Shown one piece after another: positions 4,781 to 59,590 of a DNA stretch of 64,000 bases (position 1 is the first letter of the stretch; the number at the start of each line of letters is the position of its first letter). The position numbers and the translations under genes are program-made. Location of the stretch: assembly GCF_016743815.1 (NCBI RefSeq), contig NZ_CP061035.1, forward strand, positions 1,800,501 through 1,864,500. The letters run 5' to 3'. This stretch comes from Sphingomonas aliaeris (GTDB lineage: Bacteria; Pseudomonadota; Alphaproteobacteria; Sphingomonadales; Sphingomonadaceae). The notes under the pieces are model-generated. The model did no database searches. It was not told the DNA's origin and was given only the letters and a program-made list of their open reading frames with translations.

Positions 4781-4781
<1 letters not shown>

Positions 4782-6691
4782 TAATTGCCCTCAGCACCAA
4801 AAGCCCTGGCGTCTTCGTTCGCCTGCACCAGATTTGCAAGTCGAGCGTCGAGCGCCTGTTGTTCCTTCACCAGCGCCACCTGTCGCTCGTACGCCTTGTC
4901 CCAATCGAACGCGGCTTCCGAGTAACGCGCCTGCATTTCCGCCGTCGCATCGGCCAGCGCCGCATCCACTTCGGGGCGGGACACCAGGATCGCGATGGCC
5001 TCGTCGAGGTCCTCGCGCGCCCTTTGCGGCTCCGCATCCCTCAAGGTGAAGGATAGCGACAACTGGTCCGGCCGAAGCAGTTCGTGCGCGATTATATCAA
5101 ATCCAGATGTCGCCAATATGGTGAGAAGGCGATCACTATCAAGCGTCTCGCCGCGATCCGCATCTTCGAGTGCCAAATCGACTACCGCCTCGAACAGCCG
5201 GCCGAGTGCGCCATCGGCCAGTTTGAGCGATCCCAGCACCTCCATATGGCGGGCAATCTCAGCCGGATGGCGGATCAGCCCGGCAAGCACCGCCTTGGCA
5301 AGGATGCGGTCGATGCCGCCCGCGCGCACGCCCTTCGCGCCTTCGCCGACGGGGCCGGGCGGCGCCTTCCACGGCTGGCCGGGCTTGCGCTGCGTGCGCT
5401 GCTGCGGCTGGAACGGGCGGAACGGTTCGCGCTTGCGGGCGTAGAGATCGTCGAAGCGGCGGCGGAATTCGGCGATATATTCGTGCTTCACGTTCTGGTC
5501 GGCGATCAACCCGGCGAGTTCGTTGAGGCGATGCTTGAACCCGGCCTTCTGTTCCGGCGTGTCGAGCGGTTCGAGCGCGAGTTCGTGCGCCCAGAGCTTG
5601 TCGACGAGCGGATCGGGGGATTTCAACAGCGCATCGAACGCCGCCGCGCCCTTGGTGCGGACGAGATCGTCGGGATCCTGACCCTGCGGCAGCGTGACGA
5701 AGGCGAGGCTGCGGCCGGGCGCGAGCATCGGCAGCGCGCGGTGGGCGGCGCGGATCGCGGCTTTCTGGCCCGCGCTGTCGCCGTCGAGGCACAGGATCGG
5801 CACGTCGCTCATCCGCCACAGGCGTTCCAGCTGCGCCTCGGTCAGCGCGGTGCCGAGCGGGGCGACGGCTTCCTCGAACCCCGCCTGCGCCAGCGCGATG
5901 ACGTCCATATAGCCTTCGACCACCAGCACGCGGCCCGATTTGCGCGCGGCGGGAGCTGCGCGATCGAGATTGTAGAGCGTGCGGCCCTTGTCGAAGAGCG
6001 GGGTTTCGGGCGAGTTCAGGTATTTTGGTTCGCCGTCTCCGATGATGCGCCCGCCGAAGGCGACGGTGCGCCCGCGCGGATCGCGGATCGGGATCATCAA
6101 CCGGCCGCGGAAGCGATCGTAGGGCGTCTTTTCCTCGACCGAGATGAGCAGCCCCGCCTCGATCAGCAGCGGGTCCCCGTACGTCTTGAGCGCGTCCTTG
6201 AGTTTGGAGCGCGAATCCGGCGCGTAGCCGAGCGCGAACGTGCGCGCGGTTTCGGGCATGATGCCGCGTTTCTCCAGGATCGCGCGGGCGTCGGCGCCGG
6301 CGATGCCGTTCAGCTGATCGGTGAACCATGTCGCGGCATCGGCACACGCCTCGTGCAGGCCCTTCGCCGCCTCCGCCTTTTCGGCGGCGCGCGGGTCCAT
6401 CGCGGGCATCTCCATCCCGGCGGACTGGGCGAGGTCCTTCACCGCATCCATGAACGGCAAACCGCGCTGGTCGGTCATCCACCGGATCGCGTCGCCATGC
6501 GCGGAGCAGCCGAAGCAGTGGTAGAAGCCCTTGTCGTCATTGACGTAGAAGCTGGGGCTCTTCTCGTTATGGAACGGGCAACAGGCACGATATTCGCGGC
6601 CGGCCTTTTGCAGCTTGGTGGTCTGCCCGATGAGCGCGGACAGGAGCGTGCGGGCGCGGAGTTCGTCGAGGAATTGGGGGGATAGGGTCAT
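4781..6691 (-). CDS. dnaG: DNA primase DnaG
   Basis: DnaG synthesises RNA primers at the replication fork. The 636-residue protein has the CHC2 zinc finger (Cys38, His41, Cys59, Cys62), then the RNA polymerase core and Toprim domain with [11 protein letters not shown] and CLDGDSAG (acidic metal ligands). The divergent C-terminal part, from about residue 440, binds DnaB helicase. It precedes rpoD with a one-base overlap. Its start codon overlaps the stop of the GIY-YIG gene (ATGA at 6688-6691), an unusual arrangement that would couple dnaG translation to that gene. Confidence 0.98.
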
Positions 6692-7140
6692 GGGATGGGG
6701 CCGGGGGGTTGGGCAAGTGTCGGTCTTGGTGCTTCGACCGGCTCAGCACAAACGGTTGGTTTGATATCGTGGCCTTCGATATCCTCGCATTTTATATTTT
6801 CGTCCTCGATACCGACGCCCCCACCTTTCTCCGTTCGTCCTGAGCTTGTCGAAGGACGTGCAACACGCGACGCCGCCAATTGCGAAAGGCATATCCAGTC
6901 GCCCGCTATTAACGCTTCCTTCTTCGCCCGCGACCAACCCTTGATACGGCGTTCTGCTTCCAGCGCTTCAATCCTGCTTTCGAATTCTTGGGACCATAGC
7001 GGCGTGATGGGCTGACGGCGCGCAGTATAATCGCAGCCGCGACCGGATTGATGGGCATCGATCCGGTAGCCCAGATCCTCGCAATGCCCCGCATAATAGC
7101 TGCCGTCGCCGCAGCGCAGAAGGTACGCCCAGAACGTCAT
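6688..7140 (-). CDS. Solitary GIY-YIG nuclease with repeat-encoded C-terminal tail
   Basis: The GIY-YIG core starts at the ATG at 7140. YLLRCGDGSYYAG provides the paired GIY/YIG strands, YRIDAH the conserved Arg, and EALEAERRIKGW the catalytic Glu helix. The core ends near residue 95. Beyond it the frame runs through palindromic repeat A at 6831-6855, encoding RPSTSSGRTE, and a degenerate copy at 6731-6755, encoding CAEPVEAP, before stopping inside the dnaG start. The tail is therefore repeat DNA that happens to be open. Further A copies lie upstream at 7221 and 7285. UvrC and SLX1 partner domains are absent. An ORF extension upstream to 7230 is also repeat-derived and I reject it. Confidence 0.85.
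   Translation of the reverse strand: MTFWAYLLRCGDGSYYAGHCEDLGYRIDAHQSGRGCDYTARRQPITPLWSQEFESRIEALEAERRIKGWSRAKKEALIAGDWICLSQLAASRVARPSTSSGRTEKGGGVGIEDENIKCEDIEGHDIKPTVCAEPVEAPRPTLAQPPGPIP
6731..6755. repeat. Palindromic repeat A, degenerate copy inside the GIY-YIG tail
   Basis: GCTTCGACCGGCTCAGCAC followed by AAACGG differs from the A consensus (TTCGACAGGCTCAGCACGAA) at a few positions. Read on the minus strand in the gene frame it encodes AEPVEAP. Confidence 0.75.
6831..6855. repeat. Palindromic repeat A inside the GIY-YIG tail (reverse orientation)
   Basis: CCGTTCGTCCTGAGCTTGTC then GAAGG is the reverse complement of the A copies at 7221 and 7285. It begins exactly where the recognisable nuclease fold ends, so it forms the left bracket of the gene. 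Confidence 0.85.
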
Positions 7141-7466
7141 GTCGTCGCGATGACAGATCGTGGCGATTCGGTCGAGGGGGCGTGGGCGGGCTTTTGGCGG
7201 GGGCGGTGCTTTGGGCATGTCCTTCGACAAGCTCAGGACGAACGGTGGTGCGGTACTTTCACGGTCAGCTCGCGCGGGGCATGTCCTTCGACAGGCTCAG
7301 GACGAACGGAGGGAGGCTGCTGGTCCAACTGCCCGATGTACGGTGACGTCCGTCAATTGGCGGCAGGAACCGGCGGTCCTGAACACTGGCCGGGGTTTGC
7401 CCGATACCCCCCGTTCGTCCTGAGCTTGTCGAAGGACATGCCCAAGATACCGTCAGCTAACCCTTT
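7141..7466. repeat. Non-coding gap with three A repeats
   Basis: This 326-base gap between the GIY-YIG gene and yqeY holds A copies at 7221-7245 and 7285-7309 (same orientation) and 7411-7435 (inverted). Each is embedded in a GGGCATGTCCTTCGACA-like context, so the unit extends a few bases past the core. No promoter for either gene is obvious and no credible ORF is present. Confidence 0.8.
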
Positions 7467-7919
7467 TTAATTCAGAGCAGCCTTAACCAGGCCGCTCGCC
7501 TTGCTCATGTCCAGCTCGCTGGCATGACGCGCCTTCAGTTCGGCCATCAGGCGGCCCATGTCCTTCATGCCTTCCGCGCCGATCTCGGCCTTGATCGCGT
7601 CGATAGCGGCGCGGGTCTGGGCTTCGTCCATCTGTTGGGGCAAGAACCGTTCGATGACGGCGACTTCGGCGGCTTCCTTGTCGGCGAGTTCCTGGCGGCC
7701 GCCCTTGACGAACATGTCGATCGACTCGCGGCGCTGCTTGATCATCTTCTGCAGCACCTCGACGATCAGCGCGTCGTCGCTGTCGGGGGCCTTTCCGGTG
7801 CGTGCCTCGATGTCGCGATTCTTGATCGCGGATTGCATCAGGCTGATGGCGGCGCGGGCTTCCTTGTCGCCCGCCTTCATCGCGGTGATCTGTGCTGCCT
7901 TGATGTCGTCCCGAATCAT
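7467..7919 (-). CDS. GatB/YqeY-domain protein
   Basis: The 150-residue protein matches the free-standing YqeY family, a helical domain related to the tail of the amidotransferase subunit GatB and thought to bind tRNA. Conserved features include MIRDDIKAAQITAMKAGDKEARAAISLMQSAIKNRDIEARTGK at the start (shown here by position 1-43), LIVEVLQKMIKQRRESI near residue 52, and FLPQQMDEAQ near 92. The helical repeat ends with MGRLMAELKARHASELDMSKAS. It diverges from carA across a 140-base gap. Confidence 0.92.
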   Translation of the reverse strand: MIRDDIKAAQITAMKAGDKEARAAISLMQSAIKNRDIEARTGKAPDSDDALIVEVLQKMIKQRRESIDMFVKGGRQELADKEAAEVAVIERFLPQQMDEAQTRAAIDAIKAEIGAEGMKDMGRLMAELKARHASELDMSKASGLVKAALN

Positions 7920-8060: not shown

Positions 8061-9330
8061 ATGGCCGACGCCAAACCCATTGCCGCGCCCGTAAAGGCTC
8101 CCGAAGGCGCCACCGGCGTGCTGGTGCTTGCGAATGGCGAGATGGCGTGGGGGCGCGGGTTCGGCGCGACGGGCGAGGCGGTGGGCGAGGTCTGCTTCCA
8201 CACCGCGATGACCGGGTATCAGGAAGTGATGACCGATCCGTCCTTTGCCGGGCAGATGGTGACCTTCACGTTCCCGCATATCGGCAATGTCGGCGCCAAT
8301 CCGGACGATATCGAGGCGAACGATCCGCACGCGCTGGGCATCATCGTGCGTGAGGACGTGACCGCGCCGAGCAATTTCCGGTCGGTCGAGCATCTGGACG
8401 CGTGGATGGCGCGGCACGGGCGGATCGGCCTGTCGGGGATCGATACGCGCGCGCTGACGCGGCGGATCCGTGCCGGCGGCGCGCCCAATGCGGTGATCGC
8501 GTATGCGGCGGACGGGGTGTTCGACATTCCGGACCTGCTGGCGAAGGCGCGCGCCTGGCCCGGGCTGGAGGGCATGGACCTGGCGATCGATGTGACGACG
8601 CAGACGCATTATGGCTGGGAAGGCGGCGTCTGGCGGCTGGGGTTCGGGTATGGCGGGAACAGCTTCTCGACTTCGCTCGAAGCGAACGGACTTGGGAGCG
8701 GGGGCGATATGCCTGACACCCCGTTCGTTTCGAGCGAAGTCGAGAAACCTGCTGAAGCGAAACCCCATGTCGTGGCGATCGATTACGGCGCCAAGCGCAA
8801 CATCTATCGCAACCTAGCCGCGGCGGGGGGCGAAGGTCAGCGTGTTGCCGGCGACCGCGACGTTCGATCAGGTAATGGCGCTGAAGCCCGACGGTATCTT
8901 CCTGTCCAACGGCCCGGGCGATCCCGCCGCGACGGGGGACTATGCCGTGCCGGTGATCCGTGCTTTGCTCGAAACGCGCATTCCTTTGTTCGGGATCTGC
9001 CTTGGCCACCAGTTGCTGGCGCTCGCGGTGGGGGCGAAGACGAGCAAGATGTTCCAGGGGCATCGCGGCGCCAACCATCCGGTCAAGCGGCTGAGCGACG
9101 GGGTGGTCGAGATCACGAGCATGAACCACGGTTTCGCGGTTCTGAGCGAGACGCTGCCCGAAACCGCGCGCGAGACGCACGTGTCGCTGTTCGATGGGTC
9201 GAACGCCGGATCCGAACTGACCGATCGCCCGGCGTTTTCGGTGCAATATCACCCCGAGGCGAGCCCGGGGCCGCAGGACAGTCTGTATCTGTTCGAGAAA
9301 TTCGTCGGCAGCCTGAAGGTGGCATCATGA
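8061..9330 (+). CDS. carA: Carbamoyl-phosphate synthase small subunit CarA (one apparent frameshift; repeat insertion in linker)
   Basis: CarA supplies ammonia from glutamine to CarB for arginine and pyrimidine synthesis. The N-terminal domain ([22 protein letters not shown]-like [18 protein letters not shown]) is followed by the class I glutaminase domain with catalytic Cys in [12 protein letters not shown] and the His-Glu pair in QYHPEAS. The frame breaks at the G6 run 8825-8830; removing one G joins [10 protein letters not shown] to [13 protein letters not shown]. The repaired length is 422 residues, about 35 longer than usual. The excess lies before [13 protein letters not shown] and is encoded by an inverted pair of B repeats. 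ATG 8061 follows AGGAG at 8045; a GTG at 8049 is an alternative. The stop overlaps rraB (ATGA). Confidence 0.93.
8663..8747. repeat. Inverted pair of B repeats inside carA
   Basis: The left arm 8663-8689 reads CTTCTCGACTTCGCTCGAAG then CGAACGG. The right arm 8721-8747 is its inverse. They are separated by 31 bases. In the carA frame they encode FSTSLEANG and [10 protein letters not shown]. The arms point outward, opposite to the other B pairs in this window. Confidence 0.9.
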
Positions 9331-31004: not shown

Positions 31005-31610
31005 GGTTGGTTGCGAGCCGGGGGTGCGGGGGCTCGCGGGGGCTAGGCTCTCTCGCAGCGGCACTTGAACGAGGCCTCAATTCTATCTGCATAACCCCCA
31101 CCGTTCGTTTCGAGCGAAGTTGAGAAACTTGGGGACGGTCGTGTGGGGCGGTTTCTCGACTTCGCTCGAAACGAACGGTGGGTTGGGGAGGGCGCTAGCG
31201 GCTTGACGGAGCGGTCTGTGGTTCCTGCTTTGGATAAGCCCAGACAATCGTCATTCCCGCGCAGGCGGGAATCCATAGTCACCGAGGTTACGGCGCCTTT
31301 CGAACCGGCAGCCGTTATGGATCCCCGCCTTCGCGGGGATGACGGTGGTTTTGAGGCTGGCGGTGGGTCATCCGGGGATGACCGTGGTTTGAGGCTGGCG
31401 GTAAGCCATCCGGCGAGCCGGTGGTTGGGGCAGGTGCTTCGACAGGCTCAGCACGAACGGGGTGGGGGGTAAAGACTCCTGAGCATCGGTCGTGTCGGCT
31501 TAGCAGCGCGTGGATCCTATCGACCACCGGACCGTCCGAGCCCCAACGCGTCACGCTCCTGAACAACGCGCGGCTTTCGACAATCGCGGCGGGAGCGGTA
31601 TGGAGGCGGG
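31005..31610. repeat. 600-base gap packed with B, C and A repeats
   Basis: The gap holds an inverted B pair (31101-31127 and 31152-31178, 24-base spacer), an inverted C pair (31249-31276 and 31317-31345) and an A copy at 31436-31460. A tandem-like duplication, GGTTTGAGGCTGGCGGT, recurs around 31350 and 31390. No gene is supported. Confidence 0.85.
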
Positions 31611-35349: not shown

Positions 35350-35482
35350 CCGTTCGGTTCTAGGGAAGTCGGGTAACCTTGGACGGTCCTGCGTGATTGT
35401 TTCTCGACTTCGCTCGAAACGAACGGGGGGGGAGTTGGCGTCGTGGTTGAAGCAGGTGCTTCGACAGGCTCAGCACGAACGG
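35350..35482. repeat. Inverted B pair (left arm degenerate) and A repeat
   Basis: The B right arm at 35400-35426 is perfect. The left arm at 35350-35378 has decayed (CCGTTCGGTTCTAGGGAAGT). An A copy follows at 35458-35482. This fills the 175 bases between the response regulator and AmpG-like genes, both of which point at it. Confidence 0.8.
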
Positions 35483-38738: not shown

Positions 38739-39152
38739 TTAGAGGCTACCCTCCGATGCTGCGCAATCCGCCAGAGGAGCGGCCTTCTTGCTCCCCTCCC
38801 GCTCGCGGGAGGGGTTGGGGGAGGGGCGTGCCGCAAGCTTCGACGTTATCGCTGCAACTACGCCGTTGAGGTTTTGCAGAACATCCGTGTTCCAGAAGCG
38901 GATGACCTCATATCCGTGGCTTTTAAGATAAGCGGTCCGGCTTGCATCGGCCTCCGGCGTGTGTTGGCCGCCGTCCACCTCGATGACCAGCTTCGACGAT
39001 CGCGCTACGAAGTCACAGATGAATGGCCCGACGGGGACTTGCCGGTTGAAGCGGGCGCCTGCGATCTTGCGCGCGCTGATGGCGCGCCACAGCAGGCGTT
39101 CGGCCTCCGTTGCGTTTTGACGAAGTTCGCGGGATCGGGTTCTCTGTTCCAT
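38739..39152 (-). CDS. Solitary DUF559 (Vsr-like) endonuclease-fold protein with repeat-encoded tail
   Basis: The core (MEQRTRSRELRQNATEAERLLWRAISARKI by position 1-30, key residues RELRxNxTxAExxLW) and RFNRQVPVGPFICDFVARSSKLVIEVDGGQH show the DUF559 fold, with catalytic-type Asp and Glu-x-Asp-Gly-Gly-Gln. RTAYLKSHGYEVIRFWNTDV follows. The last 25 residues (ARPSPNPSREREGSKK) are encoded by a D repeat at 38793. A second D copy, inverted, lies just upstream at 39183. ATG 39152; the extension above it is repeat-derived. Confidence 0.87.
   Translation of the reverse strand: MEQRTRSRELRQNATEAERLLWRAISARKIAGARFNRQVPVGPFICDFVARSSKLVIEVDGGQHTPEADASRTAYLKSHGYEVIRFWNTDVLQNLNGVVAAITSKLAARPSPNPSREREGSKKAAPLADCAASEGSL
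38793..38814. repeat. Palindromic repeat D, at the DUF559 C-terminal end
   Basis: CCCCTCCCGCTCGCGGGAGG GG is a near-perfect palindrome, followed by TTGGGGGAGGGG. It is the inverted counterpart of the copy at 39183. Confidence 0.85.
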
Positions 39153-39182: not shown

Positions 39183-39204
39183 CCCCTCCCGCAAGCGGGA
39201 GGGG
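39183..39204. repeat. Palindromic repeat D, upstream of DUF559
   Basis: CCCCTCCCGCAAGCGGGAGG GG, preceded by CCTCCCCGG. Its flanking CCTCCCC tract lies to the left, while the other copy has it to the right, so the two copies bracket the DUF559 core as inverted repeats. Confidence 0.85.
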
Positions 39205-59017: not shown

Positions 59018-59590
59018 GGTGCGCCTTTGCCGGTTGTGACGAGTTCCGGCGGGCTTTGCGGATCGCGGCTCGCTCCCGCACCGTCCGTTCGTTTTGGGCA
59101 TCGTCGAGAGACATGGTCCGAGTTCGGCGGCCTGTTTCTCGACTTCGCTCGAAACGAACGGTGGGGGGATGGCAGATCTGCCTGTTAGCCTGGTTGCGCA
59201 TTTATCCCGCTAACACCGTTGATCATGCGCCTGGGGGAAGCGAAGCGACGGCTGAGTTCACTCAACGCCGTTCGTTTCGAGCGTAGTCGAGAAACTTGTT
59301 CCGAGTTGTGCGGCCGGTTTCTCGACTTCGCTCGAAACGAACGGGTGGGACGGGAGGGGACGGGGTGCCGATGGAACGCGCCGATCCAGTGCAATCCGTT
59401 CGTGCTGAGCCTGTCGAAGCACCTTTCCTGCGAAATCCGCCCTATGACGAGCTCAGGACGAACGGTTGGAGCGGGGCGTGAGTGTATTCCCTGACGAAGT
59501 ACCGGCATGCCACCGACGCGGCCAAGCAACCGGTACCCCGTCATTCGAACAGGGGGTGTGCTTGGCGGCGTCCTGTCCTACATCGCGGGG
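59018..59590. repeat. 573-base gap with B pairs and an A pair
   Basis: Two inverted B pairs (59085-59111 with 59135-59161; 59268-59294 with 59318-59344) each have a 23-base spacer. An inverted A pair (59396-59420, 59441-59465) has a 20-base spacer. No gene is supported here. The leader before ATG 59591 shows no clear ribosome site. Confidence 0.85.

Follow-up and report, generated by a model that had tools for sequence, protein, structure and literature searches.

A GIY-YIG nuclease gene bracketed by inverted palindromic repeats in sphingomonads: a candidate counterpart of REPIN/RAYT systems

Results

The window is a 64,000-nt stretch of the Sphingomonas aliaeris genome. An open frame of 180 aa on its minus strand (6688–7230, with TTG at 7230 in the open reading frame listing) lies between two minus-strand neighbors: upstream a GatB/YqeY-like gene (7467–7919), which we take to be yqeY and which is encoded in 41 of 41 genomes of the genus, and downstream an open frame (4781–6691) that is presumably dnaG, as in the original prediction. 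Pfam places GIY-YIG (PF01541) over residues 34–104 of the 180-aa frame (4.6e-12), and the conserved nuclease core of 88 aa, here called A-type, spans 6877–7140 (minus strand). Homologues begin at the ATG at 7140, the probable start of this core. Translation of the 30 residues that precede it in the listed frame is therefore improbable, and the A repeat copy at 7221 lies upstream of the gene. The other end of the frame is repeat-encoded, as anticipated: its C-terminal residues come from the repeat copies at 6831 and 6731, and it shares four bases with the start of dnaG.

GIY-YIG nucleases are characterized by two tyrosine motifs and by a catalytic arginine and glutamate. These features and the alpha/beta fold are present here, as judged from Pfam, alignment and model, and Y6, Y16, G18, R26 and E63 are all intact in 154 of 156 distinct A cores. 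Values of dN/dS of about 0.06–0.13 in five close pairs indicate purifying selection. An AlphaFold model of the core (pLDDT 94.9) finds its best PDB matches among UPF0213 proteins (1zg2, 1ywl) and its next best in Slx1-Slx4, for which the PDB entries give branched DNA as substrate. Two further GIY-YIG matches occur in the host genome, making three in all; one of these falls within a 641-aa frame, which we assume to be UvrC.

The core is bracketed by A repeats in inverted orientation, each containing a 22-nt motif without mismatch. One (6831–6861, minus strand, motif at 6831–6852) lies about 15 nt beyond the end of the core, in keeping with the claim that the recognizable nuclease stops close to this copy, and carries its head, CCGTTCG, outward. 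The other (7218–7245, plus strand, motif at 7224–7245) lies on the far side of the gene, with its head CGAACGG also outward. The further copies that had been predicted are present as well. On the same side as the 7224 copy are a second A repeat at 7282–7309 (plus strand, motif exact at 7288–7309) and a third, before yqeY, at 7411–7438 (minus strand, exact at 7411–7432); a decayed copy on the plus strand occupies about 6730–6755 in the C-terminal tail of the frame (family D1, 75%).

Across the 4.26-Mb host genome, the 22-nt motif has 160 copies with at most two mismatches, and the same search with the motif read backwards gives 0. Among all exact copies in the genome, four occur within 1 kb only at the GIY-YIG locus. 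Small gene-free pairs of A repeats, oriented like those around the gene, are dispersed over the genome. Of the 23 neighbor pairs no more than 60 bp apart among the matches listed (complete for exact copies, a minimum for those with one mismatch), 21 are outward-headed with a spacing of 44–48 bp, two point the same way and no pair has its heads inward. The repeats around the GIY-YIG gene likewise have their heads outward, so that the locus resembles a pair with a gene inside.

The A repeats form a superfamily with a stem that varies in sequence yet remains paired and with a GAACGG-type head, either GAACGG or GAGCGG. Covariation was examined in 231 type-a copies, many of them from gene flanks and all with loop and head set by the pattern used to find them. 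At the three inner positions of the stem, 216, 227 and 228 copies have Watson-Crick pairs, compared with 78, 135 and 202 in the shuffled control. The outermost position of these copies has no pairing excess (158 versus 154 shuffled). The predicted energy of the A hairpin is unremarkable (z about −0.9), and the stem is therefore supported by covariation rather than by energy. Within genomes, flanking and distant copies showed no clear agreement in head variant, with 6 of 20 cases concordant and 3.8 expected (p = 0.066). A related repeat, B (GTTTCTCGACTTCGCTCGAAACGAACGG), occurs in the window at 8667–8743, 31098–31182, 35404–35426 and 59139–59344. Its head is identical to that of A, and in two relatives (L010, L033) it flanks A-type genes on both sides; A and B thus look like one superfamily. 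Some A repeats at four loci (L076, L083, L167, L194) are a longer version of this element with an extra inner hairpin, which is preceded by CCGTTCGTCCTGAGTAG or GAGGAG and followed by TCGAAGGA.

A match to the A core (E ≤ 1e-3) is found in 167 of 296 genomes of the host order. To score bracketing, 250 bp from one side of the gene was compared with the reverse complement of 250 bp from the other, and the best local match was taken. The original prediction would have failed had most homologues lacked flanking repeats; instead, 122 of 156 distinct A cores have a long inverted repeat across the gene with a score of at least 18, while 11 fall between 14 and 18, and 23 below 14. Within the 20-kb loci, 40 of 49 A cores reach this threshold, as do 64 of 80 named A loci (the best 80 of at least 550 confirmed stretches); the two sets share some loci. 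Random intervals reach it in 3 of 3055 cases in the 20-kb set and 0 of 1583 in the named set. Other genes of the 20-kb loci reach it in 1 of 788 frames, with an A motif on both sides of none of the 788; after removal of the loci of a related GIY-YIG clade, f8, the count is 1 of 656. Of the 49 A cores, 31 have A motifs on both sides and 36 on at least one; of the 656 other genes, none has them on both sides and 27 have them on one. The density of the motif in these loci is 4.9/kb beside A genes versus 0.079/kb far off. The repeats are therefore not equally dense beside unrelated genes, and the random-interval and other-gene controls rule out chance clustering. Nor are all GIY-YIG proteins alike in this respect, since 0 of 11 f8 genes have an inverted repeat across the gene at this score.

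Bracketed A genes also occur outside the sphingomonads, in Pseudacidovorax, Nitrotoga, Methylobacter, Methyloglobulus and Rhodanobacter and in MAGs labelled Syntrophaceae, Binatia and Dehalococcoidia. Among the 80 named loci, no inverted pair was seen at either Thiobacillus locus, in the Gallionellaceae or at the Burkholderiales locus. Two low-scoring cores, L106 and L112, were scored in addition to the 49, and L112 is positive. The gene at L112 (4698–4925, 69 bits) is a divergent GIY-YIG gene, and its long inverted flank, at roughly 100 bp or more, contrasts with the short REPs.

Repeat number follows the gene. In 213 genomes of the family, with the A gene counted as present when its best match has E ≤ 1e-15, the median A-motif count is 37.5 with the gene (n = 64) versus 1 without it (n = 149; Mann-Whitney 1.4e-16). 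Two genomes with fragments above this cut-off (G132, G269) were counted as lacking the gene, and one with a stop (G025) and one with a split frame (G218) as having it. Species with and without the A gene stand side by side in 13 genera of the family, and a within-genus permutation over these gives p = 2e-4, the floor of 5000 shuffles. The relation has exceptions in both directions: at least 10 copies are present in 39 of the 149 genomes without the gene, and fewer than 10 in 13 of the 64 that carry it. The comparison that the original prediction called for, of repeat counts with and without the gene, thus comes out in its favor.

Y1_Tnp (PF01797), the transposase domain of RAYTs, has no match in the host genome, which rules out a RAYT as mover there. 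It is matched in 55 of 296 genomes of the host order. By hand tally, it occurs in 9 of 64 family genomes with the A gene (one match below the family cut-off included), and in 19 of 90 family genomes with at least 10 A repeats versus 13 of 123 with fewer. Y1_Tnp may therefore play a part in the repeats of some genomes.

The second small GIY-YIG gene of the host genome, located between genes that are presumably pheS and rplT, is bracketed by inverted copies of the palindrome CGTCAYCCCCGCG..GGGATCCA. This palindrome belongs to the CGTC-tagged REP superfamily, defined by a CGTC head, a palindromic stem and a CCA tail. The motif has 65 copies in the host genome, and 20 of 22 outward-headed pairs counted have a spacing of 67–71 bp; the copies that flank the gene, here called C-type, are oriented as in these pairs but with a spacing of 379 bp. 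Of the 30 best C-type loci in the host order, 27 score at least 18, and of 30 C-type cores across the phylum, 19 do so. CGTC repeats accompany the C-type genes of Azospirillum lipoferum, Aeromonas caviae and Neisseria gonorrhoeae, and the C-type gene of Sinorhizobium meliloti has a CCTC form of the repeat (score 18); no bracketing repeats were found at the C-type loci of Rhizobium K1/93, Planktothrix and Spirosoma. In the N. gonorrhoeae record (L154), the gene at 2501–2764 adjoins dRS3-type repeats, the CGTC REPs of Neisseria. A phage origin of the C clade was ruled out by the lack of any match in 50,697 phage records. In a tree of 146 rows, for which the 155 A rows were randomly reduced to 70, a supported branch separates A from C, and f8 falls within the A side on a long branch; the alignment has few columns, and the tree leaves many forks and the inner order open.

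The window contains a second nuclease-repeat unit, built around a DUF559 domain (38835–39149, minus strand; genome position 1839335–1839649; PF04480, 1.3e-35). Motif search places a D palindrome (CCCCTCCCGC..GCGGGAGGGG) on either side, at 38793–38814 and 39183–39204, and the inverted pair scores 25.5. The D palindrome occurs at 62 places in the host genome, which has four DUF559 genes; such genes are present in 88 of 99 family genomes. Inverted palindromes, CCCTCTCCC..GGGAGAGGG or CCCCTCCCGC..GCGGGAGGGG, span the gene at 25 of the 30 best loci, or 25 of 28 when two loci at contig ends are set aside. A DUF559 gene adjoins yqeY in one genome (G005), and another occupies the sufB-sufC spacer of Sphingomonas parapaucimobilis. 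Read by eye, many relatives have a DUF559-like frame and the D palindrome, in place of the GIY-YIG gene, between yqeY and dnaG (L125, L126, L128, L130, L132, L141, L144, L151, L153); of these frames, only that of G005/L141 is confirmed by a Pfam match.

Each nuclease keeps to its own repeat. This was examined by searching for motifs within 200 bp of distinct cores, after removal of duplicates with identical core DNA and of the two contig-end DUF559 loci among 30; the CGTC motif comprised head, stem (7 of 8 pairs) and tail, and also admits CCTC/TGTC-type variants. The A motif accompanies 120 of 156 A cores (100 on both sides), which have CGTC in 0 and D in 5 cases. CGTC accompanies 57 of 64 C cores (46 on both sides), with A at 1 and D at 0. 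D accompanies 27 of 28 DUF559 genes (22 on both sides), with A at 3 and CGTC at 0. Gene and repeats are thus associated specifically and in a set orientation, and repeat number is coupled to the gene.

Counting duplicates, the A gene was placed at 162 loci. It occupies the yqeY-dnaG spacer at 28 of them, so inheritance in place is common, and lies elsewhere at 134; scores of at least 18 are found at 24 of the 28 and at 104 of the 134. Within the host genus, 2 of 25 readable yqeY-dnaG spacers (30 loci) hold the A gene, and in one relative the spacer consists of a stop codon and one base only. A case of presence and absence at a single site comes from the C clade, not the A clade of the window. 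The sufB-sufC spacer of Azospirillum lipoferum 4B contains a C-type gene flanked on either side by a repeat pair; the same site is a short spacer in A. oryzae, A. ramasamyi and strain B510 (93.8–94.8% identical), and also in A. argentinense. The other 11 of 12 listed Azospirillum rows give a two-piece match covering 72–75%, as for an empty site, and four of these 11 were checked by alignment. Some 20–30 unmatched bases lie outside the repeats, so the exact ends of the unit are not fixed. S. meliloti, considered as a source of a second such site, yielded none, as many short repeats match there.

Discussion

The original prediction likened the locus to the RAYT/REP arrangement with a different enzyme fold, and the bracketing of homologues together with the gene controls supports that likeness. 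We consider it probable that the gene and its bracketing repeats constitute a REP element operating in the manner of REPIN/RAYT, in which the enzyme is a GIY-YIG nuclease. On this model, the nuclease would recognize the extruded hairpin plus head and cut beside the hairpin. Cutting would mobilize the gene-bearing, autonomous unit, and the same nuclease could act on the gene-free pairs, which would then be non-autonomous. The association and its specificity are seen directly in the genomes; cutting and mobilization are what we infer from them. In this way, small nucleases may spread both these repeats and themselves.

Other explanations deserve consideration. A host-tamed role has been suggested for some RAYTs, and the nuclease might likewise process or resolve REP hairpins or cruciforms on behalf of the cell, the flanking repeats keeping substrate and enzyme linked. 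Purifying selection, the intact active site in 154 of 156 cores, the 28 of 162 loci at the yqeY-dnaG position and the similarity to Slx1-Slx4, the nearest fold after UPF0213 and one with branched DNA named as substrate, all fit such a role. We nonetheless think it unlikely, because the gene is patchily distributed (with and without it in 13 genera of the family), lies elsewhere at 134 of the 162 loci, and has a relative that is present or absent at one Azospirillum site.

Still less probable, in our judgment, is that the gene is a passenger, the repeats being moved by another enzyme and gathering with small nuclease genes in tolerant spacers. The near-perfect match of each nuclease clade to its own repeat is difficult to reconcile with shared shelter of this kind, as is the finding that none of 656 other genes stands between A motifs, even though different nuclease genes do occupy the same types of spacer (yqeY-dnaG and sufB-sufC, for example) and 39 of 149 genomes have repeats without an A gene. 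The obvious other enzyme, Y1_Tnp, is somewhat more frequent in repeat-rich genomes (19 of 90 versus 13 of 123), but by hand tally 71 of the 90 have no match to it, nor does the host genome. It is very improbable that the gene is a homing-type parasite, one that would cleave alleles lacking the repeats and use recombination to copy its locus into them, leaving repeats as target-site scars. GIY-YIG domains are known from homing endonucleases, according to the consulted part of a 2006 survey (PMC1564403), and the Azospirillum unit, which the relatives of its host lack, could arise in this manner; the 160 gene-free copies, their fixed paired layout and the specificity for repeat type would all go unexplained.

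Returning to the REPIN/RAYT-like model, we lean slightly toward a broader version of it. Two GIY-YIG clades and DUF559, as unrelated hydrolytic nucleases, would define a class of mobile REP elements beside RAYTs, each mobilizing its own REP superfamily, and the CGTC REPs, dRS3 included, would thereby be equipped with an enzyme. In the literature found, RAYTs are the sole enzymes tied to REPs. The original prediction knew of no such arrangement for GIY-YIG, and our search, which covered few subscription papers and no preprints, likewise found no paper linking GIY-YIG or DUF559 with REPs. The accessible portion of RepRanger 2025 (PMC12306157) does not contain the term GIY; the word palindrome is likewise absent from the consulted part of the 2006 GIY-YIG survey, which raises the question of additional members being molecular parasites (PMC1564403). 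The pairings reported here supply named candidate enzymes together with named substrates, in hosts that are easy to handle in the laboratory, so the question of what moves REPs becomes directly testable. If the model is correct, unrelated nuclease folds have taken the same part in mobile DNA.

How do these elements compare with known systems? The CGTC superfamily, which includes Neisseria dRS3, was apparently without a dedicated transposase in the 2013 survey of Di Nocera (PMC3733652), where, in the part consulted, the mover was left open. The C-type repeats share the CGTC head, the 8–9 bp stem and the CCA tail of these REPs; the difference is that the consulted part of the survey lists no transposase gene, whereas a GIY-YIG gene is bracketed here. 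The A repeats, with a GAACGG-type head and a shorter stem, belong to another superfamily. Single-domain UPF0213 proteins, presumably YhbQ-like, resemble the A-type protein in fold (1zg2, 1ywl); the comparison differs in the f8 clade, which we do not equate with YhbQ and whose genes (0 of 11) are without an inverted repeat. GIY-YIG homing endonucleases and Penelope elements likewise place a GIY-YIG nuclease in a selfish context. Unlike those, the protein has only the GIY-YIG domain in Pfam, with no reverse transcriptase, and the bracketing parts are REPs; in place of an intron or intein site and NUMOD motifs, the gene stands between the separate yqeY and dnaG frames.

Finally, the arrangement has several features in common with REP/REPIN systems and their RAYTs: a small enzyme gene with an inverted REP on either side, numerous copies without a gene, which often form inverted pairs, and a hairpin with an unpaired head. 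The many inverted pairs at fixed spacing that characterize REPINs are present, at 44–48 bp for A and 67–71 bp for C. The heads differ, being GAACGG/GAGCGG (A) and CGTC (C) instead of the GTAG type of RAYT systems. The enzyme differs too: the protein carries only PF01541 and not the Y1 (HUH) tyrosine transposase domain. The window gene is therefore not a RAYT, and in this REP-like setting the place of the HUH Y1 transposase is taken by a GIY-YIG nuclease.
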